Of a stretch of DNA of 64,000 nt, positions 45,263 through 57,260 are shown piece after piece. The notes beneath the pieces are model-generated. The model ran no database searches and was not told where the DNA came from. It was given only the letters and a program-made list of their open reading frames with translations. The position numbers were made by a program, and so were the translations under genes. The DNA comes from Pelagimonas varians (GTDB lineage: Bacteria; Pseudomonadota; Alphaproteobacteria; Rhodobacterales; Rhodobacteraceae), in contig NZ_QKMF01000006.1 in the NCBI RefSeq assembly GCF_003208435.1, positions 1 to 64,000 of the forward strand. The letters run 5' to 3'. Every line of letters starts with the position of its first letter. Positions within the stretch are counted from its first letter, which is position 1.

Positions 45263-45339
45263 GGACCGATAGCTCAGCTGGATAGAGTACCTGACTACGA
45301 ATCAGGGGGTCGGGGGTTCGAATCCTCCTCGGTCCGCCA
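45263..45339 (+). tRNA. tRNA-Arg (anticodon ACG)
   Basis: A 77-base cloverleaf including the encoded CCA: acceptor GGACCGA pairs with TCGGTCC, the D arm is AGCTCAGCTGGATAGAGT, the anticodon stem CCTGA/TCAGG encloses the loop CTACGAA with anticodon ACG, and the T arm contains GGTTCGAATCC. Its 3' end is the attachment site of the downstream element, which restores the full gene. Confidence 0.97.
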
Positions 45340-45343
45340 TTAC
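45324..45343 (+). repeat. attL core (20-bp direct repeat, copy 1)
   Basis: The 20 bases CCTCCTCGGTCCGCCATTAC cover the T-stem end, acceptor and CCA of the tRNA plus four bases. An identical copy lies at 55074-55093. Confidence 0.92.
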
Positions 45344-45359
45344 ACCCCTGATCATAAAC

Positions 45360-46466
45360 TTATCCCTTCGATTTCAAGTGGTTATGTTCCTGAGTTGGAA
45401 CTTGCTCTGAAAGTTGGAACTTTTCTGTTCCCTCTACGGTCCTGCGTAGATCGGCGGACTTCGAATAACGTGTCGCTTCCCCAATAGTCTCATGGCCTAA
45501 AATAGCCATTCGTTGATCTGCGGAAGCACCATTCTCTTTGAACATCGCTGCACGACCCTTGCGAATCCCGTGAGCGGTCTTGCCCTTCTCAAGGCCAGCA
45601 GCGTTAGCGGCCTTAGAAAACCATGATGCGGCACTCTTTGGAGAGCGAGATTTTCCGGTTTGGGTCGTTAGAAAAGTGATGTGATTATCTTCGGCGTTTA
45701 GACATGCCTGCAAATCTGTTGTGCCTTCAAACCAATCTGGCCCATCGGCGTAGAAAGGGCAGGCCGCAACACTGTTTGATTTTTGCCGGGTGTAGGACAA
45801 CCAACCATCTTTGACGTTGCCACGTGTGAGATTGCAGGTGTCGCCAATTGCGGCGCAGGTCCGATACATCAGCTCGAAAGCCAAGCGTTCTTTGGTGCCG
45901 ATTGCCCAGAAAGCCCGGAAAGCAGCAAAGTCATTACGCGTCCAGGGGGTGTGCCCATCGGTTGCCGCAGTCTTGCTCAGTGAAACTTGGCGCGCCACGT
46001 TGATTTCAATCATTCCTTGCTCATCCCAGAAGGAACAGAGTGAGCGCCAAACCTTGAGGCGGTTGTTTCGAGAGTGTCCCTCGAATGTCGATAGGTCTTT
46101 TTTAATGTGGCGGGCTGTCAGGCTTTCCAGATTGGCAATCCCGTAACGCAGGCGAATATCATCGCAACGAGTGCGCCAGCGTTCCTTGGTGCTCGATGCC
46201 ATCCCGTGAAAACTAGAAGATCCCAGATAGGCCGTAACGCCTGCGCCCAAGCTGCCTAGGCCGAATGCCTTAGGTTTCGGGGTAGGGGCCTTGCCTGATG
46301 CATCAACATATGCCGCTAGAAATGCTGCACTATCTTTTGGAGCGTCGGGCATTCGAACGCCCTTTTCCCCTTTGGGTCGATAATAGAAGCGTGGGTTACC
46401 GCTAGCAAAGAAACCGGATTGGGAAAGATGCTTCAACCTGACCGTTCCTCGAAAATGGCGTCGCAT
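45360..46466 (-). CDS. int: Tyrosine recombinase (integrase)
   Basis: The 368-residue product is a phage-type tyrosine integrase. Catalytic residues can be placed: Arg202 (YRTCAAIGDTC), His299 and Arg302 (AHGIRKGRA), His325 (ILGHE) and Tyr334 (ATRYSKS). A core-binding domain precedes it around residues 75-165. It reads toward the tRNA and stops 16 bases before the att core. The gene's 3' end contains two AGTTGGAACTT repeats likely to be arm-type binding sites. The start at 46466 overlaps the preceding small gene. Confidence 0.94.
   Translation of the reverse strand: MRRHFRGTVRLKHLSQSGFFASGNPRFYYRPKGEKGVRMPDAPKDSAAFLAAYVDASGKAPTPKPKAFGLGSLGAGVTAYLGSSSFHGMASSTKERWRTRCDDIRLRYGIANLESLTARHIKKDLSTFEGHSRNNRLKVWRSLCSFWDEQGMIEINVARQVSLSKTAATDGHTPWTRNDFAAFRAFWAIGTKERLAFELMYRTCAAIGDTCNLTRGNVKDGWLSYTRQKSNSVAACPFYADGPDWFEGTTDLQACLNAEDNHITFLTTQTGKSRSPKSAASWFSKAANAAGLEKGKTAHGIRKGRAAMFKENGASADQRMAILGHETIGEATRYSKSADLRRTVEGTEKFQLSEQVPTQEHNHLKSKG
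45393..45422. repeat. Putative integrase arm-type sites, left
   Basis: AGTTGGAACTT occurs twice (45393-45403, 45412-45422), 19 bases apart, about 60-80 bases from the att core. A 14-base version, TGAAAGTTGGAACT (45408-45421), recurs at the other end of the element (54974-54987). Confidence 0.6.
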
Positions 46467-46639
46467 GTTTTGGCCTCACTTGCGTTGGTTGTGTTTTCGA
46501 CTTCACCAACCAAGATACGCACAATACCACCGCCGCGCACCTCAACCGCTGAAACGGGCAATCCAGCGCGTTTTGCGCCTTCAATGGCCGTCTGGACTAG
46601 CTGAGGTGTTGTGCGACGATTCTGGATGGCTTCATTCAT
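46433..46639 (-). CDS. Small element protein before the integrase gene
   Basis: The 68-residue product has an N-terminal TTPQLVQTAIEGAKRAGLPVS helix pair and a compact VEVRGGGIVRILVGE strand, then a polar tail with one cysteine. It overlaps portal by 8 bases and integrase by 34. I do not know its function. The position just upstream of integrase suggests it could be a directionality or regulatory factor, but no AlpA or Xis motif is clear. Confidence 0.65.
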   Translation of the reverse strand: MNEAIQNRRTTPQLVQTAIEGAKRAGLPVSAVEVRGGGIVRILVGEVENTTNASEAKTCDAIFEERSG

Positions 46640-47849
46640 CGTTGCCCCCTTCCCGCTGGCCCAGCTCGGTCATGTTGAGCGGTGACAGGTATTCGTTGCC
46701 GTCTTCGATCTCGCTTAGGTTTTCCCAACCACGAATTTCATTCGGGCTGATCCAGCCCCATTCCCGGCCGATCCGATAAGCCTCATAGCGGGCCTTCATA
46801 TCGCCGCGCAGTAGGCCAGCAAGGTCATGCTCTACAAAATAGCGCTTGCGCCCTTCGCTGGTAAGAAGCGCCGCATTCATAGCCTGTTCAATGCGGCGGG
46901 CCATCGGGGCCAGACAGCGCACCACCAGCGCGCGACTTTCGCCATCTACATTTGAATAGGTGGCGTTATCTGTGATCCCAACAACTGTGGGCGGAACACT
47001 GAATGTGCGGGCCACGTCCATGTTGGACAGCTTGCGGCTTTCCAAAAACTCGGCATCCTTGGATGACAGCGACAGGCTTTTCCATTCAACGCCGCCATCC
47101 AAAACCAGAATACCGGATGACTGCACCTCGCCTTCAACGCGGGTGCGCAGCTTGTCCAAAGCATCAACCTTTTTGTCACCGCCGATGGATTGAGGAAACA
47201 CAAGCGCGCCCTCGGGACGGAAGGCTTTGCCCGCTTGACGGTTCGCCTGTTCTTGCTGTGTCAGTGCCAAGGAAAAGGTTTCTCGCGCGAGTTGGATAGG
47301 CGATGCGCCCATGATCCCATCGGGGCCAAGGCGATAGCGCAAATGCAGGATTTCTTCTTGCAGGTGGACCTTTGTGCCGCCGCGTGCGTCCGACACGCGA
47401 TAGCGAAGCCGCCCGCTTTCCAAGCGCTCAACCGCAACCATGGCTGGGTTGAGTGGGAACAAACCCACCACCTGCCCGCGGGCGTTGCGGTCGATCTGGG
47501 CAAAGGCATTGCCCGTGGTCAATAGCGAGACAATCAAATGCTCACGACCTTCAAAGGCGGTCAATTGCTCGTTGAAGTTATCATGCAAACAGGTGTGAAG
47601 CGGGTGCGACGTGGCGCGGTTCCGACCGCTGCCTTCGCCGTGCTGATAGACATTGAACGGCATTGCGGCCAAGTTTTGACTGATTACCGAAATACATGCT
47701 TGAGCTACGGAAAGGCCGGACGCGCGGCTTGGATCAACAAATCCGCTTGCGGTGCTGCGTTGGCCCAAAAACGCTGCAAGCGCCGGGTCAGAGGAGGTGA
47801 TCGTAGAGTCGCGCTGTTCACGGCCAAAGATGCGAGACAACAGGCTCAT
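46632..47849 (-). CDS. HK97-type portal protein
   Basis: The 405-residue product is the phage portal, the ring at the head vertex through which DNA passes. The segments VAQACISVISQNLAAMPFNVYQ, RYRVSDARGGTKVHLQEEILHLR and PSQ-like ESRALVVRCLAPMARRIEQAMN match the HK97 family. It is coupled to the protease gene by ATGA. In this element it comes after capsid in the direction of transcription, the reverse of the usual portal-protease-capsid order. Confidence 0.92.
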   Translation of the reverse strand: MSLLSRIFGREQRDSTITSSDPALAAFLGQRSTASGFVDPSRASGLSVAQACISVISQNLAAMPFNVYQHGEGSGRNRATSHPLHTCLHDNFNEQLTAFEGREHLIVSLLTTGNAFAQIDRNARGQVVGLFPLNPAMVAVERLESGRLRYRVSDARGGTKVHLQEEILHLRYRLGPDGIMGASPIQLARETFSLALTQQEQANRQAGKAFRPEGALVFPQSIGGDKKVDALDKLRTRVEGEVQSSGILVLDGGVEWKSLSLSSKDAEFLESRKLSNMDVARTFSVPPTVVGITDNATYSNVDGESRALVVRCLAPMARRIEQAMNAALLTSEGRKRYFVEHDLAGLLRGDMKARYEAYRIGREWGWISPNEIRGWENLSEIEDGNEYLSPLNMTELGQREGGNDE

Positions 47850-48379
47850 GTCATCAACTCCAAAATTGTCAGGGTGCGGGCTGCATGATTGCGGGCTGTG
47901 AATATGCTGGGCTTTGAGCGGGCCTGAATGACCGTGCCACCATAGGCTGGGAACGCTGCAACAATGCTGATTTCGAACAGATCCACCGCCCGCAATTCGC
48001 GGCGGTTGTCGTCAATCTGCTCATCGCGGGCGTTAAACCCAAAGGACATTCCGCCAAGGTCGCCGCGTTCGGCCAATGCCAACACATCGCGGCCAGCTTG
48101 TGTATCTGGCACATCCAGATCAAAAGCCAAGCCGCGTGTGTCTTCGCTCAGGCGCAGAGTGCCGGACTTGGTGCGGGCCAAAACGCGGGCCGGATCATGG
48201 TCAACCAGCGCCAAAATGTCAGACCTTTGTGCCAAAGTGGTCGCAAAAGCACCGGGGGCGATGGTTTCAAGCATCCCCCCACCAATCCGTGCCTCTGTGC
48301 CAAATAGGGCTGCGTAGCCTTCTAGGCGTCGGCCTTTGGTACGCAGTTCGGCGGTTTGAAAGCGTTTCTCAAGGGTCAC
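47846..48379 (-). CDS. HK97-family prohead protease
   Basis: The 177-residue product is the head maturation protease. The catalytic histidine is in ALVDHDPARVL and the serine in LGGMSFGFNA; EGYAALFGTEA and FEISIVAAFPAY are family features. It would cleave the capsid delta domain. It overlaps the connector and portal genes by four bases each. Length is normal. Confidence 0.92.
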   Translation of the reverse strand: MTLEKRFQTAELRTKGRRLEGYAALFGTEARIGGGMLETIAPGAFATTLAQRSDILALVDHDPARVLARTKSGTLRLSEDTRGLAFDLDVPDTQAGRDVLALAERGDLGGMSFGFNARDEQIDDNRRELRAVDLFEISIVAAFPAYGGTVIQARSKPSIFTARNHAARTLTILELMT

Positions 48380-48657
48380 AGGTTAAACTCCCGATATGGG
48401 GCAATCAGGCGCGATACGCCCAAAGGGACAACGGTTAGTTGTCCCTCGGTCACGGCCTCTTTGTTTTCGAAGAAATGAGCGGCAAGCATCAATGCCGCAT
48501 GTTTTAGTGCCGGAGGAAGTGGGTCAACCGTCATGCCCACATCAATTGAATTGAGATGATCCACAGCCGCATCCAACGCGTTCTGTAATTCCAAATCAAA
48601 ATCCGTATCCTCAGGCAAAACCCGACAGTGGGCCTTCACATCCTCCAGCGTCACCAT
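48376..48657 (-). CDS. Head-tail connector (gp6-like)
   Basis: The 93-residue product resembles the gp6-like adaptor that stacks on the portal: VTLEDVKAHCRVLPEDTDFD at the start and the KHAALMLAAHFFENKEAV helix are typical. Its start shares a base with the capsid stop (TAATG). The presence of a connector makes sense if finished heads must accept tails made by another phage. Confidence 0.85.
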   Translation of the reverse strand: MVTLEDVKAHCRVLPEDTDFDLELQNALDAAVDHLNSIDVGMTVDPLPPALKHAALMLAAHFFENKEAVTEGQLTVVPLGVSRLIAPYREFNL

Positions 48658-49895
48658 TAGCCAATCTCCGCGTAGCGGAAGCCTTCGGGGTGGCGGACCA
48701 CCACGTCAGCATCAAGGAAGGCATGAAGCAGAGCGCCGCCCTTGCTGGCCACATCCGAATGATAGGGGTTCACAAGCAGATCCACACCAGACCAGTAGCC
48801 GATATAGAGGCTGGCCCATTCACCATAGATCAGCGCGTCTTTGTCGCTACCTGCGCCAATGTCACTGGGAACCTGTGTGGACGACTCTACGCGCTCATTG
48901 TGGAACGTTTCAGACAGCGGAATGTTGCGGCCATCAGAGTCTTGAAGCTTGCGGGCGAGGTTCATAACCGCTGGATTGGTCAGGAACGCCGCCGTACCAG
49001 AAACGTTGTCCGATTCCAGAGCCGCAATCAAGTCCGACGCTAAATCCGCGTCAATCGGGCCACCGGTAACACTCGAAACGTCACCGTTGGCCAAAATGCC
49101 CGTAGGTTCATTTGTGCCGCCCCCACGTATGGCCGCGCTATCCAGCTTTTGAGCCAGCAAAAAGGCCAGATCTGCCCGCAACACCGTTTCCAAAGCCGTG
49201 TTGGATTGCAGCATCATCCGGCGTGACAACTCATATTCCGCTGTAACTGTCTTTGGCCCCATGGACGTTTTGCTAAAGGTAGCGTCTGAGCGGTTGGCAT
49301 CGGTGTGCTCCGCTACCCAAGATGCAGAACCAGATCCGGCAAGGCGGGGCAGTTCAAGATTGCCAGACAAGCCGCGCAAAACTGTTGCACCCATGCTTTC
49401 GATCTTAAGGGCCGGGCGGCGGCGGTCGGTCATGGCGGCAAGGTTTGTTGCCACCAGATTGCCCCCCGTGCCGCCCGTGGTCAAAGCGCGGGTTTCGCCG
49501 CCAAGAATGATTTCAGTCGGAACCATAACGCCGCGCACTTCGCCGCGATCTCGGGCCAATTCTTGGTGGTGTTCCGCTTCAAGACCGGTCAACCGGCCAG
49601 AGCGGCTTTCGGTCAGCGCCTTCGACAGCGAATAGCCCGTTGTGGTCAACGTGCCGCTGCCATTGCCGGAAACATCTTCGCCGCGCGCTTCGAACCGCTC
49701 AAACTCTGCTAGTTTTTCCGCATTGGTCAAACGGGTTTGCAAACTACGCGCTTCACCTTCCAGCGTGTTGAAGCGCTTTTGCTCTTCGCCAGACAAGTCA
49801 CGGTTTTCCGTGTCTGCCTTGTCATTGATTGCCCGCATTTCTGCGGTTTTTGCTGCACGTTGCTCACGCAGCTCATGGGCCTTATCAAGAGTCAT
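48657..49895 (-). CDS. Major capsid protein, HK97 fold
   Basis: The 412-residue product has a coiled-coil N-terminal scaffold (delta) domain, about residues 1-110, then the HK97 capsid fold, with a GGNLVATN start region, ELSRRMMLQSNTALETVLRADLAFLLAQ and LLVNPYHSDVASKGGALLHAFLDAD near the end. Cleavage by the neighbouring protease is expected near the end of the delta domain. An AAGGAGA ribosome-binding site precedes it. Confidence 0.94.
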   Translation of the reverse strand: MTLDKAHELREQRAAKTAEMRAINDKADTENRDLSGEEQKRFNTLEGEARSLQTRLTNAEKLAEFERFEARGEDVSGNGSGTLTTTGYSLSKALTESRSGRLTGLEAEHHQELARDRGEVRGVMVPTEIILGGETRALTTGGTGGNLVATNLAAMTDRRRPALKIESMGATVLRGLSGNLELPRLAGSGSASWVAEHTDANRSDATFSKTSMGPKTVTAEYELSRRMMLQSNTALETVLRADLAFLLAQKLDSAAIRGGGTNEPTGILANGDVSSVTGGPIDADLASDLIAALESDNVSGTAAFLTNPAVMNLARKLQDSDGRNIPLSETFHNERVESSTQVPSDIGAGSDKDALIYGEWASLYIGYWSGVDLLVNPYHSDVASKGGALLHAFLDADVVVRHPEGFRYAEIG

Positions 49896-49925
49896 CTTGA
49901 TTCTCCTTTGTGGATGTTAAGATAA

Positions 49926-49971
49926 AGGCCAGCGCGTTCTCTGCGTCCAAACTTTGCGCGCGCTGGCCGGT
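49926..49971 (-). terminator. Hairpin upstream of the capsid gene
   Basis: On the minus strand GGCCAGCGCG and CGCGCTGGCC form a strong stem with a 22-base loop followed by TTTATCTT. It lies between the 240-residue gene and capsid and could partly separate early from head-gene transcription. Confidence 0.5.
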
Positions 49972-49979
49972 TTAGAAAC

Positions 49980-50702
49980 CTATGGAATGTCCTCCCATTG
50001 GTCAGCGCATGCCGCCACTAGGGGCGCAATCATGTTTCCTTCGATTTTCATGCTAACTTCGCGTTTGTCTTGTTGTTCTTCCAGCAAGAGAAAGTTGGCC
50101 GTCACAAGCCAATCGTGTTCTTCTTCGCAGTCAGTGAAACGAAGGCGGTCGCTGCTATCGCCAGACGCCTCAATGTAGCGCTTTTGCATTTCTGCTTGAG
50201 ACGTTTTGACATTCATCTGGATTTCCCAGCTAAGAGCGTCTTGGCTGGATTTTGACGTTATGCCTGTCAATCGGTTGTTTGGCTCTTGGTTCTTGGAAAA
50301 CAACAATGCGGTTGCGAGAACTTTAATCAGGTCGTTGCTTTTAAGCATATCGCAATAATTTGTGGGCAGCGGTGCGCCATACCACTTGTACGGCATCGCC
50401 TTCTCATCTTCGGGCCTTCCAAGACCATTTTGCAGGGCGGTTAAATCTGTCCAGTCACAGAAGTCAAACTTGGCACGAGACAAATCCCGCAAGGCGTATC
50501 CTGTGCCGGTTGGCTCAGAAAAAGAATTAAACCCCAAGAGAACAGCGGCAAGGTCATCGGGCTGCATCTCGGCAGCGCCCTTGCCGCGCCCACCGCTGCG
50601 CAAAAAACCATGTTCACGCATGAAACGGGCGCGCGTTTTTGCTTCGCTGGGTTTTATCCCGATTTCCATAGAAGCGGCGTTTATGAGTGCAGCAAGTTTC
50701 AT
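49980..50702 (-). CDS. Unknown element protein, 240 residues
   Basis: I do not recognise this protein. Its N-terminal 55 residues, with IGIKPSEAKTRARFMREHG and GRGKGAAEMQPDDLAAVLLG, look helical and basic and may bind DNA. The rest is mixed. Its promoter region is covered by two copies of a palindrome, TTGCA-N5-TGCAA, in a perfect 18-bp inverted repeat. It could be a regulator or replication factor, or occupy the small-terminase role, which otherwise seems unfilled in the element. These are guesses from position. Confidence 0.65.
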   Translation of the reverse strand: MKLAALINAASMEIGIKPSEAKTRARFMREHGFLRSGGRGKGAAEMQPDDLAAVLLGFNSFSEPTGTGYALRDLSRAKFDFCDWTDLTALQNGLGRPEDEKAMPYKWYGAPLPTNYCDMLKSNDLIKVLATALLFSKNQEPNNRLTGITSKSSQDALSWEIQMNVKTSQAEMQKRYIEASGDSSDRLRFTDCEEEHDWLVTANFLLLEEQQDKREVSMKIEGNMIAPLVAACADQWEDIP

Positions 50703-50713
50703 ATGCGTTCTTT

Positions 50714-50760
50714 TTGCACGAGATGCAAAAAAGGGTCAAGTGTTTTTGCATCTCGTGCAA
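50714..50760. promoter_or_regulatory. 18-bp inverted repeat with two palindromic sites
   Basis: Arms TTGCACGAGATGCAAAAA (50714-50731) and its exact complement (50743-50760) are separated by 11 bases. Each arm holds the palindrome TTGCA-CGAGA-TGCAA, so this looks like a pair of operators. A TTGACC hexamer on the minus strand lies between the arms. It could also fold as an RNA hairpin just after the upstream gene's stop codon. Confidence 0.65.
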
Positions 50761-51207
50761 TTAAGGGCGGCGTTGCGAATTCTTGTGACGTGCTGGTTTG
50801 CTCAAGATCTGGGATATGTGGTCAAGTTGTTCTGCTGTGCGGTGCAAGGCGAAAGTAACACGGTATGAGATATACAGCGCCGCGTCGCGGGTTCTACCTT
50901 CGGTGTCTAGGTCGCCATCTTTCACCAAGGCATCAAGCGCGTGGGATAGGTGCAGCGCTTCTTCAAATCCTTCGGGGTATTCTTCTCCGTCCGAGTGCAA
51001 GAGAGTCCATGCCTCAGAAATTGCGTCACATTCGTTGTCCGGAAGGCTATCCAGATAGGCCGCTTGGCGGCTCCGCAAGGCTTCAACTTCCTCCATGTGG
51101 TCACTGAAAACATTGCTGCCGCATAGGGCAAGGCCGCTTACCTGATTGTTTTCAAACATGGAAACAGGGTGTGGCTGATCGTTCGCGCAGGCGCGGTCTT
51201 TGGGCAT
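50761..51207 (-). CDS. Unknown element protein, 148 residues
   Basis: The product is acidic, largely helical and unrecognised. It has the features of a small soluble protein, with EEVEALRSRQAAYLDSLPDNE in the middle. An AGGAGA site precedes the ATG. It is transcribed away from the HTH pair, and the intergenic region carries two operator-like repeats, so it may be the first gene controlled by that regulator. Confidence 0.65.
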   Translation of the reverse strand: MPKDRACANDQPHPVSMFENNQVSGLALCGSNVFSDHMEEVEALRSRQAAYLDSLPDNECDAISEAWTLLHSDGEEYPEGFEEALHLSHALDALVKDGDLDTEGRTRDAALYISYRVTFALHRTAEQLDHISQILSKPARHKNSQRRP

Positions 51208-51228
51208 TGTCAGGGTCTCCTGAATGGG

Positions 51229-51286
51229 TTATCAACAGTTTATGTTGATAACGACGGTGAGTATCGCCGTCAACAGAAAATGTTGA
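51229..51286. promoter_or_regulatory. Two TCAACA-N5-TGTTGA operators
   Basis: The intergenic region of the divergent genes has two palindromes of the same type. The first (51229-51251) has 9-base arms TTATCAACA and TGTTGATAA; the second (51270-51286) has 6-base arms TCAACA and TGTTGA. Both have 5-base spacers, and their centres are about 38 bases apart. The second ends 1 base before the HTH gene's start codon. This is the pattern of a phage-type switch. Confidence 0.8.
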
Positions 51287-51287
51287 T

Positions 51288-51512
51288 ATGACACCTGCAC
51301 AATGCCGAGCCGCGCGCGCCTTGATTTCTATGACACAACCAAAACTCGCCGAAACTGCATCAGTTGGCTTGTCCACGGTCGTAGATTTCGAAAAGGAAAG
51401 AAGGGCTGTCGCAGAACCTTCAATTATGGCCATCTGCGAGGCTCTAGAACGCGCGGGTGTAGAACTCATTCCTGAGAATGGTGGCGGCGCAGGCGTTCGG
51501 CTTAGAAAATGA
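51288..51512 (+). CDS. Small HTH transcription regulator (Cro/CI-like)
   Basis: The 74-residue product is little more than a helix-turn-helix domain: QCRAARALISMTQPKLAETA then GLSTVVDFEKERRAVAEPS, ending with a short tail. It resembles the XRE/Cro-CI group. It lies next to two operator-like palindromes, which it probably binds. The start codon is 1 base from the second palindrome, so a bound repressor would block its own expression. It overlaps the following gene by four bases. Confidence 0.85.
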   Translation: MTPAQCRAARALISMTQPKLAETASVGLSTVVDFEKERRAVAEPSIMAICEALERAGVELIPENGGGAGVRLRK

Positions 51513-51844
51513 AAAGCTTGGATGAATTTAACGGGGACACCAGTCTAGCAGTAAGAGTAGAGGGCGCAGTAATGTGCCTATTGGTAAGCAAAGGCGCTTA
51601 CTCGGAACAGCTTGCTAGTGCTCTGGATTGGGTTCTCCCACTTGGCCCGGGCGACTTCCCCCAAGAGCTTCAAGACAGTTGGGCGTGTATTCAAAGGACA
51701 ATGGAACAATGCCCCAGCGTCCAAATAACTGGCTGCCCCCCACATAGGGACACACTTTCTATTTCGAGAAGCCCCAAGAGAAAGTCTGAGTTCGCGCAAG
51801 CACTGCTCGAAATCTATCGCGCGACGCTTTCTGGAAAAACCTAG
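51509..51844 (+). CDS. Unknown partner of the HTH regulator
   Basis: The 111-residue product is coupled to the regulator by an ATGA overlap. No motif is recognised. It is soluble, with three cysteines and mixed helix/strand. Such partners of small HTH proteins can be antirepressors, toxins or co-regulators, which the sequence does not tell. Its stop lies 3 bases from the convergent terminase stop. Confidence 0.6.
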   Translation: MKSLDEFNGDTSLAVRVEGAVMCLLVSKGAYSEQLASALDWVLPLGPGDFPQELQDSWACIQRTMEQCPSVQITGCPPHRDTLSISRSPKRKSEFAQALLEIYRATLSGKT

Positions 51845-51847
51845 AAC

Positions 51848-53515
51848 TTACTCCAAAAGCTGCGCCAAACACGCCGGAAGCTCTTCTTCCAACTCTCGGT
51901 CAATCGCTTCGATCGCCATGGCAAGCGCCACCAGCCCATCGATCCGCCCGCTTGACCGCGCTTTGTCCAATTTTCTGTTGCCAGCGGCATCACGCTCAAT
52001 CACCGCGTTGGATGCGCAAAAGGTCAGGATCGGGTTGCCGGCATGACGCAACCGGCCTTCCGCAACCATGCGTTCCAGCTTGTCCACCGCTGGCCCCATA
52101 TCGCGAAAGCCCTGCCCGAATGGCTCCAGCGGCGGAGCGACGTTGATGCGGTCCAATTCCCGTTTCAGATCATTGATGCGCCAGCGGTCATAGGCGATGG
52201 TGCGCAGATCGAAGTCTTGGCAAGCCTCTGCAATGGCTTCGGCCACGGCGCTAGGATCGATCACGGGACCGGGGATCAGGGTTAGAAAACCCTGTTTCGC
52301 CCAAACCTCGTATGGCACCCGATCTTGTTCCGATTTTTCGCGAATGCCAGCCTCAGGCAAGAAGAACCTGGCGAACACATCAATGCCGCCATCGGCATCG
52401 GGAAAGACCAGCACAAAGGCGGTCAGGTCGCGGCTCTGCGACAGATCCAGCCCGCCCCAGCATTCACGCCCTGCCAACGCCGCATAATCCACCGCGCCGC
52501 CATTGGCGTCCCATTCTGCCTTGGCCAGAAACCTGACATGCGCGTCAACGCGTTGGTTTAAGATCAGGTTGCGGAATGATTGTTCCTTGGACGGAATACG
52601 CTGCGCTTGCGCCGCTTGACGCTGCACATCCTCAAGGGATCGAAAGTCACCAAGCGCCGGATTTGCTTTGAGCCAAGTTTCTTCGCTCCAAGGGTCATCG
52701 TCTTGATCTGCTCCGTAAAAAGTCAGGTGAAAGCTTGGGTCGATTTCTTCGCCCGCGTTTATCTTTTTGCCATAGTCCACCAGTTCGGACAAAACCGCGT
52801 GGTCATTGGCGGCTTGGGTGCTAATCACGCAAAGCAGCGGGTTGTCACGCGCGCCCATGGCCGTATCAAGCGCTTCGTAGAGGTCGCGCTTGGGGGCGGT
52901 GCCAAGTTCGTCGTAAATGGTAAAACTGGGACTCAAACCCTGTTTGGTGGAAGCATCGGCGCTAAGTGCTTGAAAAATTGAACCTTTTCCAGTGCCGCTT
53001 AGGACTTCGATCCGCTTTGAGAATTTGACCACGTTGACGCGCGTGTCCAGTTCGGGGTGTTCGTCCAGTATCGCGACCATTTCCATGAAGGTCTTTCCGG
53101 ATTGCTGTTTGTCGTTTGCGGCGGCATAGACTTCGCCCCGGCTTTCCGCCTCTGGCCCGACAAGGTGGCAAAGGCCAAGACCCGCGACCAATTGCGTTTT
53201 GCCGTTCTTGCGGGCCATGGACAAAACCGCAGTGCGCACCGGGCGTTGGCCGGTTTCATCTTCGGCGTAGACGGCTTCAAGGAAGTCGCGTTGCCAATCG
53301 CGGATTTCAAGTTTTGAACCGGCCAAACTGCCCTGAGTGATCGGCAGATCCTCAAGAAACGCAACCACGCGTTCAACGCGGCTTAGACCGGGCTTCTCCC
53401 ATGGCAAGACGCTGCGCAGGGGCGAAACTTCGTCTTGCGCGAAGCCAAACGCGCCTTGGGCCGTGTTGCCAACCACTGCCAGTTTAGGCTTGGCCCCCTT
53501 GCCGCGTTGTCCCAT
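51848..53515 (-). CDS. Terminase large subunit
   Basis: The 555-residue product is the DNA packaging motor and headful or cos nuclease. The ATPase has a Walker A-like MARKNGKTQ at residues 100-108 and Walker B FTIYDE at 198-203. The C-terminal nuclease shows conserved aspartates in WGGLDLSQSRDLTAFVLVF and AYDRWRIND. It lies 43 bases downstream of the HNH gene. Unlike in typical phages it is separated from the portal by regulatory genes on the opposite strand. Confidence 0.93.
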   Translation of the reverse strand: MGQRGKGAKPKLAVVGNTAQGAFGFAQDEVSPLRSVLPWEKPGLSRVERVVAFLEDLPITQGSLAGSKLEIRDWQRDFLEAVYAEDETGQRPVRTAVLSMARKNGKTQLVAGLGLCHLVGPEAESRGEVYAAANDKQQSGKTFMEMVAILDEHPELDTRVNVVKFSKRIEVLSGTGKGSIFQALSADASTKQGLSPSFTIYDELGTAPKRDLYEALDTAMGARDNPLLCVISTQAANDHAVLSELVDYGKKINAGEEIDPSFHLTFYGADQDDDPWSEETWLKANPALGDFRSLEDVQRQAAQAQRIPSKEQSFRNLILNQRVDAHVRFLAKAEWDANGGAVDYAALAGRECWGGLDLSQSRDLTAFVLVFPDADGGIDVFARFFLPEAGIREKSEQDRVPYEVWAKQGFLTLIPGPVIDPSAVAEAIAEACQDFDLRTIAYDRWRINDLKRELDRINVAPPLEPFGQGFRDMGPAVDKLERMVAEGRLRHAGNPILTFCASNAVIERDAAGNRKLDKARSSGRIDGLVALAMAIEAIDRELEEELPACLAQLLE

Positions 53516-53558
53516 TTTTAGATTTCCTTATTAAATATTTGTTTGTCTATGCAGACGG

Positions 53559-53909
53559 TTAGCAGGATGATCCGCTTTCGTGATCTGACCCGCCCCCACC
53601 CCACCAGCCGTCACTCGGATCGATCGGTTCGCCCTCCGCATCACACCCTTTGAAGCGGCGACCAGTTGAGTTGCCGTGTGTTCGATCAAAGCCCGCCGTC
53701 TTCTCATTGTGACAGCGAGCGCACAGAGCCATGAGGCCAGAGAGTTCTGGATAAGCTGCGCCGCCTTGGCTGATCGGTTTGATGTGATCGACGGTGTTGG
53801 CTTCGACAGTCATCCCACGGCGTTCGCATATTTCGCAGATTGGGTTCTGCCCCAGCTTGACCAAGCGTAGCTTCTTCCACTTGCTGGTGATGTACGGCCA
53901 ACGTGCCAT
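53559..53909 (-). CDS. HNH endonuclease
   Basis: The 116-residue product is a small HNH nuclease: CEICERRG and CARCHNEKT supply the zinc cysteines, and VDHIKPISQGG plus the HN of CHNEK the catalytic histidine and asparagine. HNH nucleases next to terminases are needed for cos cleavage and packaging in HK97-like phages. It is immediately followed by the terminase gene and shares one base with the preceding small gene. Confidence 0.92.
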   Translation of the reverse strand: MARWPYITSKWKKLRLVKLGQNPICEICERRGMTVEANTVDHIKPISQGGAAYPELSGLMALCARCHNEKTAGFDRTHGNSTGRRFKGCDAEGEPIDPSDGWWGGGGSDHESGSSC

Positions 53910-54076
53910 CAGTTCACCTGCCTTGCTAGTTCGGACAGATCATAAGCAATCTCGCTTTTCTCCTCGTGAAAGCGGTGCGGGTTGCGATGGTCAGGGCATA
54001 GCCGGTGAATGCGGTAGACCAGATCTGCTATCTGTTGACTTGGTTTCTCAGGCTTCAACAACTCATTGCGCCGCAT
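53909..54076 (-). CDS. Small element protein, 55 residues
   Basis: The protein is basic and helical with a HRLCPDHRNPHRFHEEKSEIA stretch rich in histidine (given in part). I chose the ATG at 54076 because a GAGGGGG ribosome-binding site precedes it; a TTG seven codons upstream is the alternative. It overlaps the replication protein gene at its start and the HNH gene at its end. No function is recognised. Confidence 0.6.
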   Translation of the reverse strand: MRRNELLKPEKPSQQIADLVYRIHRLCPDHRNPHRFHEEKSEIAYDLSELARQVN

Positions 54077-54839
54077 GGCTGGCCCCCTCGAAGTCAATCA
54101 GTTGCTCGAAGTACCACCGAGCTTCTGCACAGGCGTCTGGCGTGGTGGGGGGGGTCTTGCTTGGAAGGTGGAAGAATTTCTTGTTCCCCTTCTCCTGCAA
54201 TTGCTGGATTGAGAAAAAACACAACTTTGGAAATTGGTTTTCATCCAGCCAATCACCCCAAGCGTTTAGAGCGCTGTGTTCTGTGGTTGGTACGACAACC
54301 AGCCCCGCGAATGTCCGGCCTGCAAAGTGGTGGTTTCTGAATTGCGACAAGCATTCCGGGCGCTTTGTGGAAACATCTGCCCTCTTATGTTCTTTATACT
54401 GTTCTTCCTTATAATGCGGAGGGATGATTTGCCCCCCCTTTTGCTGCAAATCATCCCCCCTTTCTTTACCTTGCGTGGGTGGATTTGCCCCCCCTTTATC
54501 GGTCTTGACAGGTGCATTTTGCCCCCCCTTTACAGGGCGGAACGGGATGATTTTTGAGGGTGAAAGAAGGCGTAGCATTGGCGATTTTCCGCGCCCGCCG
54601 TCGCCAATCGACAGTATCCACCCGGCGTTTCTGAGTTCCCGCAAGACGCGCTTTACGGTGTCTTTATGGACCTTCAAATAGTTCGCCAAGGTTTCTTGTG
54701 AGGGGTTCAGTCGGCCTGTTTCGTCGTTGTAGAATTGCAGTGCCAAGGCGGTGCAAACGTTCTTGGCGGTGGCGGAAAGCCCTTCTACCTGCATCACGGC
54801 TTTTAGCCACTCATAGCGGCTAATTGTGGCGCTGGTCAT
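54063..54839 (-). CDS. Winged-helix replication protein
   Basis: The 258-residue product starts with a winged-helix domain (residues about 1-95, YNDETGRLNPSQETLANYLK then VHKDTVKRVLRELRNAGWI), typical of phage replication initiators of the DnaT/O type. A middle segment with repeated KGG units (KGGQNAP, KGGANPP, KGGQIIPP) corresponds to four DNA iterons, so the origin is probably inside the gene as in lambda O. The C-terminal third, with WGDWLDENQFPKL, may bind a helicase loader or helicase. Coupled to the next gene by overlap. Confidence 0.8.
   Translation of the reverse strand: MTSATISRYEWLKAVMQVEGLSATAKNVCTALALQFYNDETGRLNPSQETLANYLKVHKDTVKRVLRELRNAGWILSIGDGGRGKSPMLRLLSPSKIIPFRPVKGGQNAPVKTDKGGANPPTQGKERGDDLQQKGGQIIPPHYKEEQYKEHKRADVSTKRPECLSQFRNHHFAGRTFAGLVVVPTTEHSALNAWGDWLDENQFPKLCFFSIQQLQEKGNKKFFHLPSKTPPTTPDACAEARWYFEQLIDFEGASHAAQ
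54426..54531. repeat. Four iterons inside the replication gene
   Basis: A 16-base repeat, GATTTGCCCCCCCTTT, occurs at 54426-54441 and 54482-54497, with close variants at 54448-54463 and 54516-54531. Starts are spaced by 22, 34 and 34 bases. Iterons inside an initiator gene usually mark the replication origin. Confidence 0.7.
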
Positions 54840-55090
54840 GCTGCACCCCCAAGGCTTGCGTAGGGGGAGTGGGCCATGTTATCAGGAAGTGAAAGCTTAG
54901 CCGCTTCGTGAACGTCTTTAGCCTCGGTTGCGCCCGCCAGCGCACCGGGGCTTTCGTTTGCCAGAACTCCTTTTGAAAGTTGGAACTCTGTGGCGTAACC
55001 CTTTGAACGGTTTAAGGCGTCAATGTTGGAAGTTTTGCCTGTAACCGATTGTTCTGGTTTGAAATTGTGCGACCCTCCTCGGTCCGCCAT
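54836..55090 (-). CDS. First gene of the replication operon, start in attR
   Basis: The 84-residue product begins MADRGGSHNFKPEQ; its ATG is at 55088-55090, inside the 20-bp att core, so its first codons are att sequence. No domain is recognised. The frame runs on into host DNA to 55216, but that part is antisense to a tRNA terminator and unlikely to be coding. It overlaps the replication gene by four bases. The DNA for its FQLS residues contains the right arm-type site (54974-54987). Confidence 0.65.
   Translation of the reverse strand: MADRGGSHNFKPEQSVTGKTSNIDALNRSKGYATEFQLSKGVLANESPGALAGATEAKDVHEAAKLSLPDNMAHSPYASLGGAA
54974..54987. repeat. Putative integrase arm-type site, right
   Basis: TGAAAGTTGGAACT is identical to a 14-base stretch at the integrase end (45408-45421). 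A weaker copy, TGTTGGAAGTT, is at 55024-55034. Such matched sites on both sides of the core are expected for integrase arm binding. Confidence 0.55.
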
Positions 55091-55093
55091 TAC
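55074..55093 (+). repeat. attR core (20-bp direct repeat, copy 2)
   Basis: This is an exact copy of CCTCCTCGGTCCGCCATTAC. Only the last part of the tRNA is present here, so this is the element's right junction. Confidence 0.92.
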
Positions 55094-55225: not shown

Positions 55226-55702
55226 CTACTGTGCAGGTGCTCCAACGGTTTTGGCGTGCACCTTGCTCAAGCCTTGGAAATTTCCGTGTTTCCTAGGCAT
55301 ATGCGATAAGCGCTTTTCAATGATCGGCACCACGGACATAGTGCTCAATTTCCTTTCGGCTTTCATGTCCGCTACTAGCCAGAATTTCGTTGTTTCTGGC
55401 ACGTTTTCAGCGCGTAAAAGCATTCTGCATATTCTATCCTTCAAGATAAGCAGGCAGGCGCGTCGTAATCTGTCTGCCCAAGCGACAGAGGTGAACTGGC
55501 TGCTCTTTTCTATGTTCACTATGTCTGGCTGGCCGAACTTGTGAATGGCCTCATTTGGTGCGTGAATGCAGAATGCGCCTTCGAACGTGCTTGCGATCCG
55601 CCGCCATAATATTGCGCATGTGTCAGCTCGTCGTCCTCCAGCGCTGCCCACGCCAACTTGGCCTTGAACCCCGGGTGATGTCGCTTCCGATTCGACAATC
55701 AT
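55226..55702 (-). CDS. Hypothetical protein, possibly composite
   Basis: This is an open frame of 158 codons. The C-terminal two thirds (WLVADMKAERKLSTMSVVPI) reads like real protein but matches nothing I know. The first 30-40 codons lie over an IS3 remnant in another frame, so the true start may be later or the gene may be a relic. The opposite strand is also open here, which weakens the case. Confidence 0.3.
   Translation of the reverse strand: MIVESEATSPGVQGQVGVGSAGGRRADTCAILWRRIASTFEGAFCIHAPNEAIHKFGQPDIVNIEKSSQFTSVAWADRLRRACLLILKDRICRMLLRAENVPETTKFWLVADMKAERKLSTMSVVPIIEKRLSHMPRKHGNFQGLSKVHAKTVGAPAQ
55623..55698 (-). pseudogene. Remnant of an IS3-family orfA
   Basis: Read from a TTG at 55698, the frame gives SNRKRHHPGFKAKLAWAALE and a few more residues, which matches the N-terminus of IS3-family OrfA transposase proteins (RKR...FKAKVAL.AL). 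After about 25-30 residues the similarity is lost. No inverted repeats or orfB are seen. It marks a past insertion close to the right end of the tRNA-borne element. Confidence 0.5.
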
Positions 55703-55952
55703 GATGAAGATCAGAAGACTACAAATTGCAACTTACATCAGTGTCTGTAAATCGGGGGGAACCCGCCTGTCATTCAGTGCGGGTGGCTTCTCATTTTGCG
55801 TTCGTGAAGTTGATTTTCAACTTGTAGCGGGCTATCTGAGGCTGACGACAGCATCGCGATGTTTCTTACGAAATTGCGGAAACCAGCAGGGCAGAGCATT
55901 TGACCCAGTTTGCACAACTAAAAACCAAACGGGGTTAACAATCTCACACGTT

Positions 55953-56549
55953 TTGAAAATTTCCGACCAAAAATGGCTTGGTAAAGGTAAACAACGGTTG
56001 GTGTTCGCGCATCCAAACGACCGTAGCAAGGTGTTGAAGGTTAAATATGAGAGGGATGGCAAAGCTTCATCTTATCGTCATTGGCTTCGGGAAAAACACG
56101 CTTTCCGGCAGATAAAAAAGCGACTTGAAGACGATTCCAATCCGCCTTTCTCCAAGTTTTACGGCTCGGTTGCCACCGATATGGGACCGGCTGACGTCTT
56201 TGAGGCCTTCTATGGACCGAAAGGTGTACGCCTTGCCCCGACGCTTAGACATTTTTTTCGCGTGGGGGAGTTTAACAAAGTGAAGCTCGGACATCTGAAC
56301 GGGCTGATTCAGAAGATCGACAAATGGGATGTACCGGTGTCGGACATGCATGCCGGGAATGTGGTGTTCAGCGAAAGGCAGGGGCAGCTACAGTTCGTTT
56401 TGGTTGACGGTCTTGGAGATTACAGATGGATACCAACTGCGCGGTGGTCATCGCGTGTCAGGCGAGAGCGGCTTGCGGAGGAATGCAAGCGCCTGACAAT
56501 TGATCGAGACCTGCACTGGGATGACGATGCGCGCCAATTTCGGTTTTGA
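55953..56549 (+). CDS. YrbL-like kinase-fold protein
   Basis: The product is about 198 residues of the PhoP regulatory network YrbL type. A glycine/lysine ATP-site-like segment (LGKGKQRLVFAHPNDRSKVLKVKY), a catalytic-loop-like VSDMHAGNVVF and a VLVDGLGDYRW element are visible, a protein-kinase-like fold. The frame stays open 84 codons further upstream, but that part is unrelated, so I placed the start at TTG 55953; the start is uncertain because no good ribosome-binding site is present. Function is unknown. Confidence 0.75.
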   Translation: MKISDQKWLGKGKQRLVFAHPNDRSKVLKVKYERDGKASSYRHWLREKHAFRQIKKRLEDDSNPPFSKFYGSVATDMGPADVFEAFYGPKGVRLAPTLRHFFRVGEFNKVKLGHLNGLIQKIDKWDVPVSDMHAGNVVFSERQGQLQFVLVDGLGDYRWIPTARWSSRVRRERLAEECKRLTIDRDLHWDDDARQFRF

Positions 56550-56735: not shown

Positions 56736-57260
56736 ATGGCAGATGGTACATTCGCAGTTTTGATGTTGGTTCTTGGACTAACAGACATGGGTATGAATCA
56801 TTGTGGAAGCGGCTCGGGTTGCCTTGGCAAAGATGAACAAACCCCGAGATTGGCCTTTTCGGCTGGCCAAGTGTTGGAGCGCCGCGCAGAGGCACAAGGC
56901 GAGATATATTTTCGCTATGATATGGCAACTAAATTTGGGCCTTTCGGAAATGCAGTCGGCGTTTCCTATACGGAGCAAGGGGCCTTGTGGCTTGGCCTTG
57001 GCCAGACTTACACGCTGACAAATGCCAACACCCCGTTCTACGCAGAGCTGCACGCTATGCCGGGCCTCTATGTGGAAAACGGTGGCTTTGACCTTGGCGG
57101 GCCAATCGAGTTTCGATCCGGGATAGAGATCGGATATGAAAACCGATCGGGTGTCAGGTTTGCAGCCAGCTATGACCACAGATCAAATGCCGGAATTTAT
57201 GATGACAATCCGGGTATTGAAACCGTTCAGTTCAGGGTGTCTGTGCCCGTTGGTTTTTAG
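56736..57260 (+). CDS. PagL-like lipid A 3-O-deacylase
   Basis: The 174-residue product is an acyloxyacyl hydrolase of the PagL type, a small outer-membrane barrel that removes an acyl chain from lipid A. The family's catalytic region is present near the end: FAASYDHRSNAGI with the His-Ser pair, followed by NPGIETVQF. The N-terminus is hydrophobic but a standard signal cleavage site is not obvious. It ends 10 bases from the convergent rnc gene. Confidence 0.85.
   Translation: MADGTFAVLMLVLGLTDMGMNHCGSGSGCLGKDEQTPRLAFSAGQVLERRAEAQGEIYFRYDMATKFGPFGNAVGVSYTEQGALWLGLGQTYTLTNANTPFYAELHAMPGLYVENGGFDLGGPIEFRSGIEIGYENRSGVRFAASYDHRSNAGIYDDNPGIETVQFRVSVPVGF

Follow-up and report, generated by a model that had tools for sequence, protein, structure and literature searches.

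A tail-less element integrated in a tRNA gene of Pelagimonas varians is probably a capsid-forming phage satellite of an alphaproteobacterial lineage

The window analysed here, a 64-kb stretch of the Pelagimonas varians genome, carries a 9,770-bp element (positions 45324-55093) that lies at a tRNA-Arg(ACG) gene and encodes proteins for phage heads and DNA packaging (Table 1). We annotated the proteins of the window by profile searches against Pfam and PHROG. An earlier note, made from the sequence alone, had described a tRNA-borne element with an integrase, a replication gene with iterons, an HNH nuclease, a large terminase (TerL), a portal, a protease, a capsid and a connector, and the profile matches agree with that description; none of the proteins searched matched a tail, lysis or fibre family, an absence that the note had also claimed. 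The attachment (att) repeat is the sole 20-mer that occurs twice on the plus strand of the window. Adjacent frames within the element abut or overlap and none is visibly broken, so that repeat and frame analysis uphold what had been said of exact repeats, overlapping genes and intact frames. GC content is 0.548 in the element versus 0.545 in the rest of the window. Along the minus strand, from 5' to 3', the genes follow one another as orf126-rep-orf62-hnh-terL-(xre and orf111, plus strand)-orf148-orf240-mcp-Ad1-protease-portal-orf68-int, and the iterons are four copies of AAAGGGGGG inside rep, at about 54421-54531.

Table 1. Features of the element and its insertion site, in window coordinates (aa, amino acids; HTH, helix-turn-helix).
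Feature	Position	Strand	Match or basis
tRNA-Arg(ACG), integration target	45263..45339	+	ARAGORN
att repeat, left copy; overlaps tRNA 3' end	45324..45343		exact 20-bp repeat
Tyrosine integrase (int), 368 aa as longest frame; gene caller start 46352	45360..46466	-	PF00589 2.5e-11, phrog_1 2.6e-20
orf68, small protein between portal and integrase	46433..46639	-	weak match (9e-8) to cluster 8, 33/116 relative loci
Portal	46632..47849	-	PF04860 8.3e-94
Prohead serine protease S78	47846..48379	-	PF04586 5.5e-43
Ad1, gp6-like head-tail adaptor/connector	48376..48657	-	PF05135 2e-8, phrog_40 9.1e-19
HK97-fold major capsid protein (mcp)	48657..49895	-	PF05065 1e-27, phrog_617 4e-58
orf240, helical N-terminal domain	49980..50702	-	cluster 11 (21 loci) 2e-14
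Inverted repeat, perfect, 18 bp, 11-nt loop	50714..50760		repeat search
orf148, divergent from regulator	50761..51207	-	cluster 29 (5 loci) 1.6e-47; no Pfam/PHROG match
Xre/Cro-type HTH regulator (xre)	51288..51512	+	HTH_3 0.0076 (weak), phrog_5823 7e-5
orf111, co-oriented with regulator	51509..51844	+	no Pfam/PHROG match
HK97-type large terminase (terL)	51848..53515	-	PF20441 5.6e-42, PF03354 9.4e-21, phrog_9 5.6e-142
Cos-like site, RACCG-N19-(A)(C)TTA(A/G)TT	53529..53560	- (read 53560 to 53529)	pattern search upstream of terL
HNH endonuclease (hnh), adjoining terL	53559..53909	-	PF01844 3.3e-11
orf62	53909..54097	-	cluster 21 (11 loci) 2.6e-23
O-like replication initiator (rep), in-gene iterons	54063..54839	-	phrog_678 9.1e-11
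orf126	54836..55084	-	48.7% identity over 39 residues near its end in L024
att repeat, right copy	55074..55093		exact 20-bp repeat

This gene content recalls the capsid-forming phage-inducible chromosomal islands (cf-PICIs), which were reportedly described by Alqurainy et al. in 2023. In the published accounts, cf-PICIs make their own heads and take the tails of a helper (PMC10690885, PMC11389934), and head-making, tail-taking satellites are called widespread, with named examples from E. coli and Vibrio (PMC10690885). Like them, the window element is an att-bounded chromosomal island with an integrase, has its own capsid, protease, portal and Ad1 adaptor, pairs an HNH endonuclease with TerL, and has no tail genes. 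It differs in its alphaproteobacterial host and in having no recognisable small terminase (TerS), AlpA or head closure protein; the two are likened by description rather than by sequence, and by gene content rather than by order, the order here being mcp-Ad1-protease-portal. A search of titles and abstract openings returned no alphaproteobacterial cf-PICI, a result that makes no claim of absence from print.

Other known systems offer partial likenesses. The Vibrio crassostreae satellite-plasmid cf-PISP is tail-less and carries capsid, portal, protease, adaptor, HNH and terminase genes in a marine host, but is a 15.8-kb extrachromosomal element with plasmid functions, no integrase and head closure listed among its genes (PMC13230959). 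The Streptomyces satellites MulchRoom and MiniFlayer have their own capsid and packaging genes but differ in having direct terminal repeats and virulent helpers, and are stated to share no significant homology with cf-PICIs (PMC10690885). HK97-type phages have a homologous TerL (44% identity), and HK97 itself also has a protease, a portal, a capsid, gp6 and, at the opposite end, gp74, which we take to be an HNH protein. However, HK97 is arranged as terS-terL-portal-protease-capsid-gp6-gp7 and has tails, whereas the element stops after its head block, which is therefore reversed; the tail and lysis genes and the portal-protease-capsid order of an HK97-type prophage were not found in the window element.

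We searched for relatives of the element at several taxonomic depths. Among 394 genomes of the family, 17 matched the window capsid at 1e-20, and only three besides the window's (G263, G294 and G297) exceeded 40% capsid identity; a fourth (G116, 34%) holds a diverged element, and the remaining family matches (28-37%) lie inside open frames that are longer, at 549-821 aa. In 390 genomes of the order, an alignment search gave 12 matches and added G592 and the distant G536. Capsid matches came from 4 of 385 genomes of the class and 8 of 398 of the phylum; G1185 is among these class and phylum matches. With the window's genome excluded, the counts are 3 of 393 family and 3 of 389 order genomes, about 1% of species in each. 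Alignment-based scans gave 30 loci in genome_contigs (including the distant, capsid-only L134), with hosts in Sulfitobacter, Phaeobacter, Sedimentitalea, Gemmobacter, Haematobacter, Chelativorans, Rhizobium, Ensifer, Sinorhizobium, Afipia, Pleomorphomonas, Brevundimonas and others; of 145 loci found in viral contigs, 80 were kept. The search for the same att-bounded gene set in Rhodobacteraceae genomes that the earlier note had proposed thus found relatives, and they reach beyond the family.

The resulting census covers 116 relative loci, whose capsids form 93 groups at 98% identity, with open reading frames (ORFs) from our own caller. The order capsid-protease-portal occurs in 114 (the exceptions being L134 and L159), and the TerL, Ad1 and integrase clusters each occur in 99. 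In 94 of the 99 loci with terL, a domain search placed an HNH domain upstream of that gene and no more than 700 bp away. Direct repeats bound 39 relative loci, 36 of them at tRNA genes and three (L049, L115 and L149) at other repeats; the shortest repeat at a tRNA gene is 14 bp, so a few of these may be chance. Removal of three same-genome copies leaves 36 att-bounded loci in 33 capsid groups at 98%. Together with the window element, the att-bounded elements span 9,074-11,262 bp (median 10,283), their longest ORF is 681 aa, and the tRNA targets among relatives are Arg, Ser, Met, Lys, Glu, Gly, Asp, Ala, Thr and Phe. In two att-bounded loci, L033 and L133, no terL is seen. The former is the diverged element of G116 (L033:246-9319), which has capsid, protease and portal; terL was not found there, and its 681-aa reverse frame has no PHROG match.

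A conserved sequence of fixed spacing lies between hnh and terL. A match occurs within -450 to +60 of terL in 65 of 94 element loci, the window among them (61 of the sites measure 32 nt and four measure 31 nt), versus two same-strand matches elsewhere in the 94 loci, a density of 1.36 versus 0.0016 per kb. In 79 of 97 loci, a weight matrix of the 3' box scores above the 99% level set by 1,464 background stretches, although single background stretches reach equal scores. Pattern and matrix were both derived from the loci scored; the counts omit three duplicate genomes, and the 94-locus count also omits three loci with terL 200 bp or less from an end. When the exact site was fetched from viral_contigs, the matches listed included 199 loci, eight with an HK97-type TerL just downstream, and all eight among these listed matches are elements of the same kind. 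Three are new contigs (L364, L377 and L411); the other five were in the earlier set, one being judged from length and gene string, which makes the check partly independent. The HK97 genome end has GACCG near its cos junction and not the full site, and among nine other tailed-phage or gene transfer agent (GTA) loci the site was matched only in L090 (from G051), as 32 nt on the strand opposite the phage genes and as 27 nt about 1 kb upstream of terL. By its conservation, the site is a candidate cos (cohesive-end) site, and a fixed-spacing cos-like site at the hnh-terL junction is new here.

The same head genes were not encountered in tailed phages. All 2,343 phage records that matched TerL, and all 231 that matched the capsid, fall short of 60% identity, and the best phage identities among the matches listed were 44% for TerL and 32% for the capsid. 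In 384 genomes of the family, three TerLs score above 900 bits, all inside tail-less elements; the next scores, 433 and 395 bits, belong to G051, which has a tailed-phage order, and to G118, where the contig ends before any tail region. Close relatives with these head genes inside a full-length tailed prophage, which the note had named as evidence that would speak against its proposal, were looked for and not found.

Together, the gene content and att sites, the conserved head order, the marks of purifying selection described below, the TerL tree (where the label of element or other requires two changes) and the hnh-terL site suggest that the element is a phage satellite that forms its own capsids and belongs to an alphaproteobacterial lineage, a reading to which we assign a probability of about 0.82; it represents a conserved and probably functional type. 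Relatives add to this evidence, since head closure (homologous to HK97 gp7, PF05521) is encoded in at least 38 of the 116 (33 groups), including L136, where the closure gene lies between Ad1 and the protease and the capsid shares 77% identity with that of the window, and an AlpA-like gene cluster occurs in 17, with phrog_66 matches. The assignment to the class of capsid-forming phage-inducible islands that the note had proposed is thus supported by the gene set and the relatives, although strict cf-PICI membership is unproven. Because this copy has no recognisable TerS, AlpA or head closure, it is surer that the element would work like a cf-PICI than that it belongs among them.

Several observations weigh against this reading. 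Helper, induction, particle and excised circle are all unseen. In the window element, head closure was not recognised by closure clusters to E 10, Pfam or PHROG, so this copy would need the closure of its helper; nor were TerS and AlpA recognised by Pfam or PHROG. TerS sequences diverge fast, and the HNH protein does match a TerS family (phrog_4581), with coverage of the HNH part; an AlpA-type regulator is typical of Gram-negative PICIs. In a tail census of 119 small non-core ORFs from 23 elements, the window's included, 25 PHROG families were matched, comprising head closure Hc1 (6 members), an AlpA-like regulator (5), other regulators, unknowns and one major tail protein, which traces to L121. 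This major-tail-protein homologue occurs in two Rhizobiaceae lineages (L121/L196 and L129) between terL and mcp (L121:9216-9659, L129:9283-9726, L196:5500-5946), and the distant relative L093 (G981), outside the family, carries a tail-assembly protein (phrog_32) behind its portal (L093:7155-7796); tail-lessness is therefore the rule and not absolute. In the TerL tree, which compares 35 chosen elements with 27 other TerLs (most of the latter without a tail check), L050, L093 and L132 fall outside the main element branch, with HK97-type TerLs between; those placed among the elements are from HK97, an E. coli HK97-type prophage, G118 and G051. The branch of the other 32 elements has a support of 80/99, below the starred level. 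Direct terminal repeats of at least 18 bp were found in none of 86 viral-contig loci, a few of which are parts of longer contigs. Finally, two relatives have decayed, L092 to scattered pieces of int, terL and portal, and L091 with stops.

A decaying prophage that had lost its tail and lysis genes would explain what is missing here, and the two decayed relatives are in keeping with it. However, the same compact set and boundaries recur in the 36 other att-bounded loci, and because these share the gene set, the window element is not one decayed prophage. Ratios of nonsynonymous to synonymous substitution (dN/dS) between the window and five chosen relatives are 0.05-0.14 for terL, portal, capsid and protease, with synonymous sites near saturation, which points to purifying selection on the head genes; Ad1 gives 0.35 against L106, and values in other pairs go up to 0.29. 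The head-gene order is also unlike that of HK97-type phages. Decay is thus very improbable, and the earlier view that the element does not look like random decay holds. An island that interferes with phages through decoy heads or terminase, without travelling in particles, would suit the lack of a demonstrated helper and particle and is itself conjecture; we consider it hardly credible, as the element has an integrase, a replication gene, an HNH-TerL pair and a conserved cos-like site, which suggest that it packages its own DNA. Even less credible is a self-sufficient tail-less virus or host-domesticated particle. Heads and packaging are indeed encoded and no tail donor is known, but integrase and att sites are kept, relatives occupy many tRNA genes, and some encode head closure, which in HK97-type phages is positioned between head and tail.

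The donor of tails could instead be the host's own GTA. Two relatives, L115:5030-14955 (Chelativorans intermedius LMG 28482) and L149:1607-11798 (IMG/VR 2890837680), lie inside an RcGTA-like cluster, with the g2 terminase (PF03237/PF17289) on the left and the last 41 g2 codons, the portal and further GTA genes on the right. Both insertions are at the identical place, with ATGTGCGA on both sides, and both elements encode head closure; an uninterrupted g2 gene is present in L221 (Aquamicrobium). The tail family GTA_TIM was confirmed beside L115, and the GTA portal frame, too, is split in L149. Two relatives at one position inside a GTA large-terminase gene are new here: our literature search found no recognisable description of satellites within GTAs, and PMC7947584 does not mention insertion, integrase or satellite. 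Moreover, GTA_TIM occurs in 15 of 22 host genomes of the family, the window's included, where it lies outside the element. On the other hand, GTA_TIM was not found in the other seven genomes (some perhaps incomplete), g2 adjoins just two of the 116 loci, and the window copy sits in a tRNA gene, so that a GTA as the tail donor appears improbable, if less so than decay. RcGTA-like GTAs have homologous head genes (about 24-35% portal identity over aligned parts) but a portal-protease-capsid order with tail genes after it, and Pfam and PHROG found no GTA tail gene (GTA_TIM) inside the window element.

As a capsid-forming satellite, the element would reside in tRNA-Arg(ACG), held by its Xre-type repressor, until growth of a helper phage relieved repression. 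The integrase would then excise it between the att sites, and the O-like protein would start replication at the in-gene iterons. HNH and TerL may cut at the conserved hnh-terL site and package a single unit of about 10 kb into heads that would be built from the element's own capsid, protease and portal, with Ad1 added, while the helper would give head closure, tail, lysis and perhaps a small terminase. The narrow range of 9.1-11.3 kb would be likeliest explained by head size. A possible helper is a prophage-like region that the window's genome also contains (G000 contig 3, 135000-174000; L051, L052), with a capsid frame of 646 aa and a GTA_TIM tail protein of 1,310 aa.

For the remaining genes, functions can be suggested with varying confidence. 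The regulatory switch claimed in the note stands in so far as an Xre-type regulator was matched, although the support is weak (16.7 bits versus a Pfam cut-off of 23). This protein matches cluster 12 at 3e-31, which occurs in 20 of the 116 loci and always in opposite orientation to the head genes, and it is the probable master repressor. The orf68 product, with no Pfam or PHROG match, is possibly an excisionase. Orf240 occupies the position before mcp where some relatives carry MerR-like proteins and is perhaps DNA-binding; its structure model (confidence score pLDDT 65.5) gave no PDB match at E 0.001. The inverted repeat is a likely terminator, and the start of orf126 is uncertain because its open frame extends past the right att repeat. 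Outside the element, on its right, a YrbL-like gene (55701-56549) lies next to a PagL-like lipid A deacylase gene (56736-57260). A second mini-element was seen in three species (L034:8922-17581, L053:256-9258, L054:6887-15185), with 8.2-8.9 kb between tRNA-Cys repeats; by the families checked in L034, it encodes a protease-capsid fusion as well as a major tail protein, terL and portal were not seen, and its Xre protein in L034 is 67% identical to the window's.

We also consider, tentatively and as unlikely on present evidence, that this is an alphaproteobacterial capsid-forming lineage with its own cos and packaging logic, at least one branch of which uses the host GTA as both home and tail source. 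If so, an element in g2 would part that gene from its last 41 or so codons, excision would restore GTA packaging, and element heads would compete for GTA tails. Elements inside a GTA terminase gene make a conflict between satellite and GTA testable. More broadly, these elements of about 10 kb in roseobacters, rhizobia and relatives may constitute a route of gene transfer that is easily mistaken for a broken prophage.

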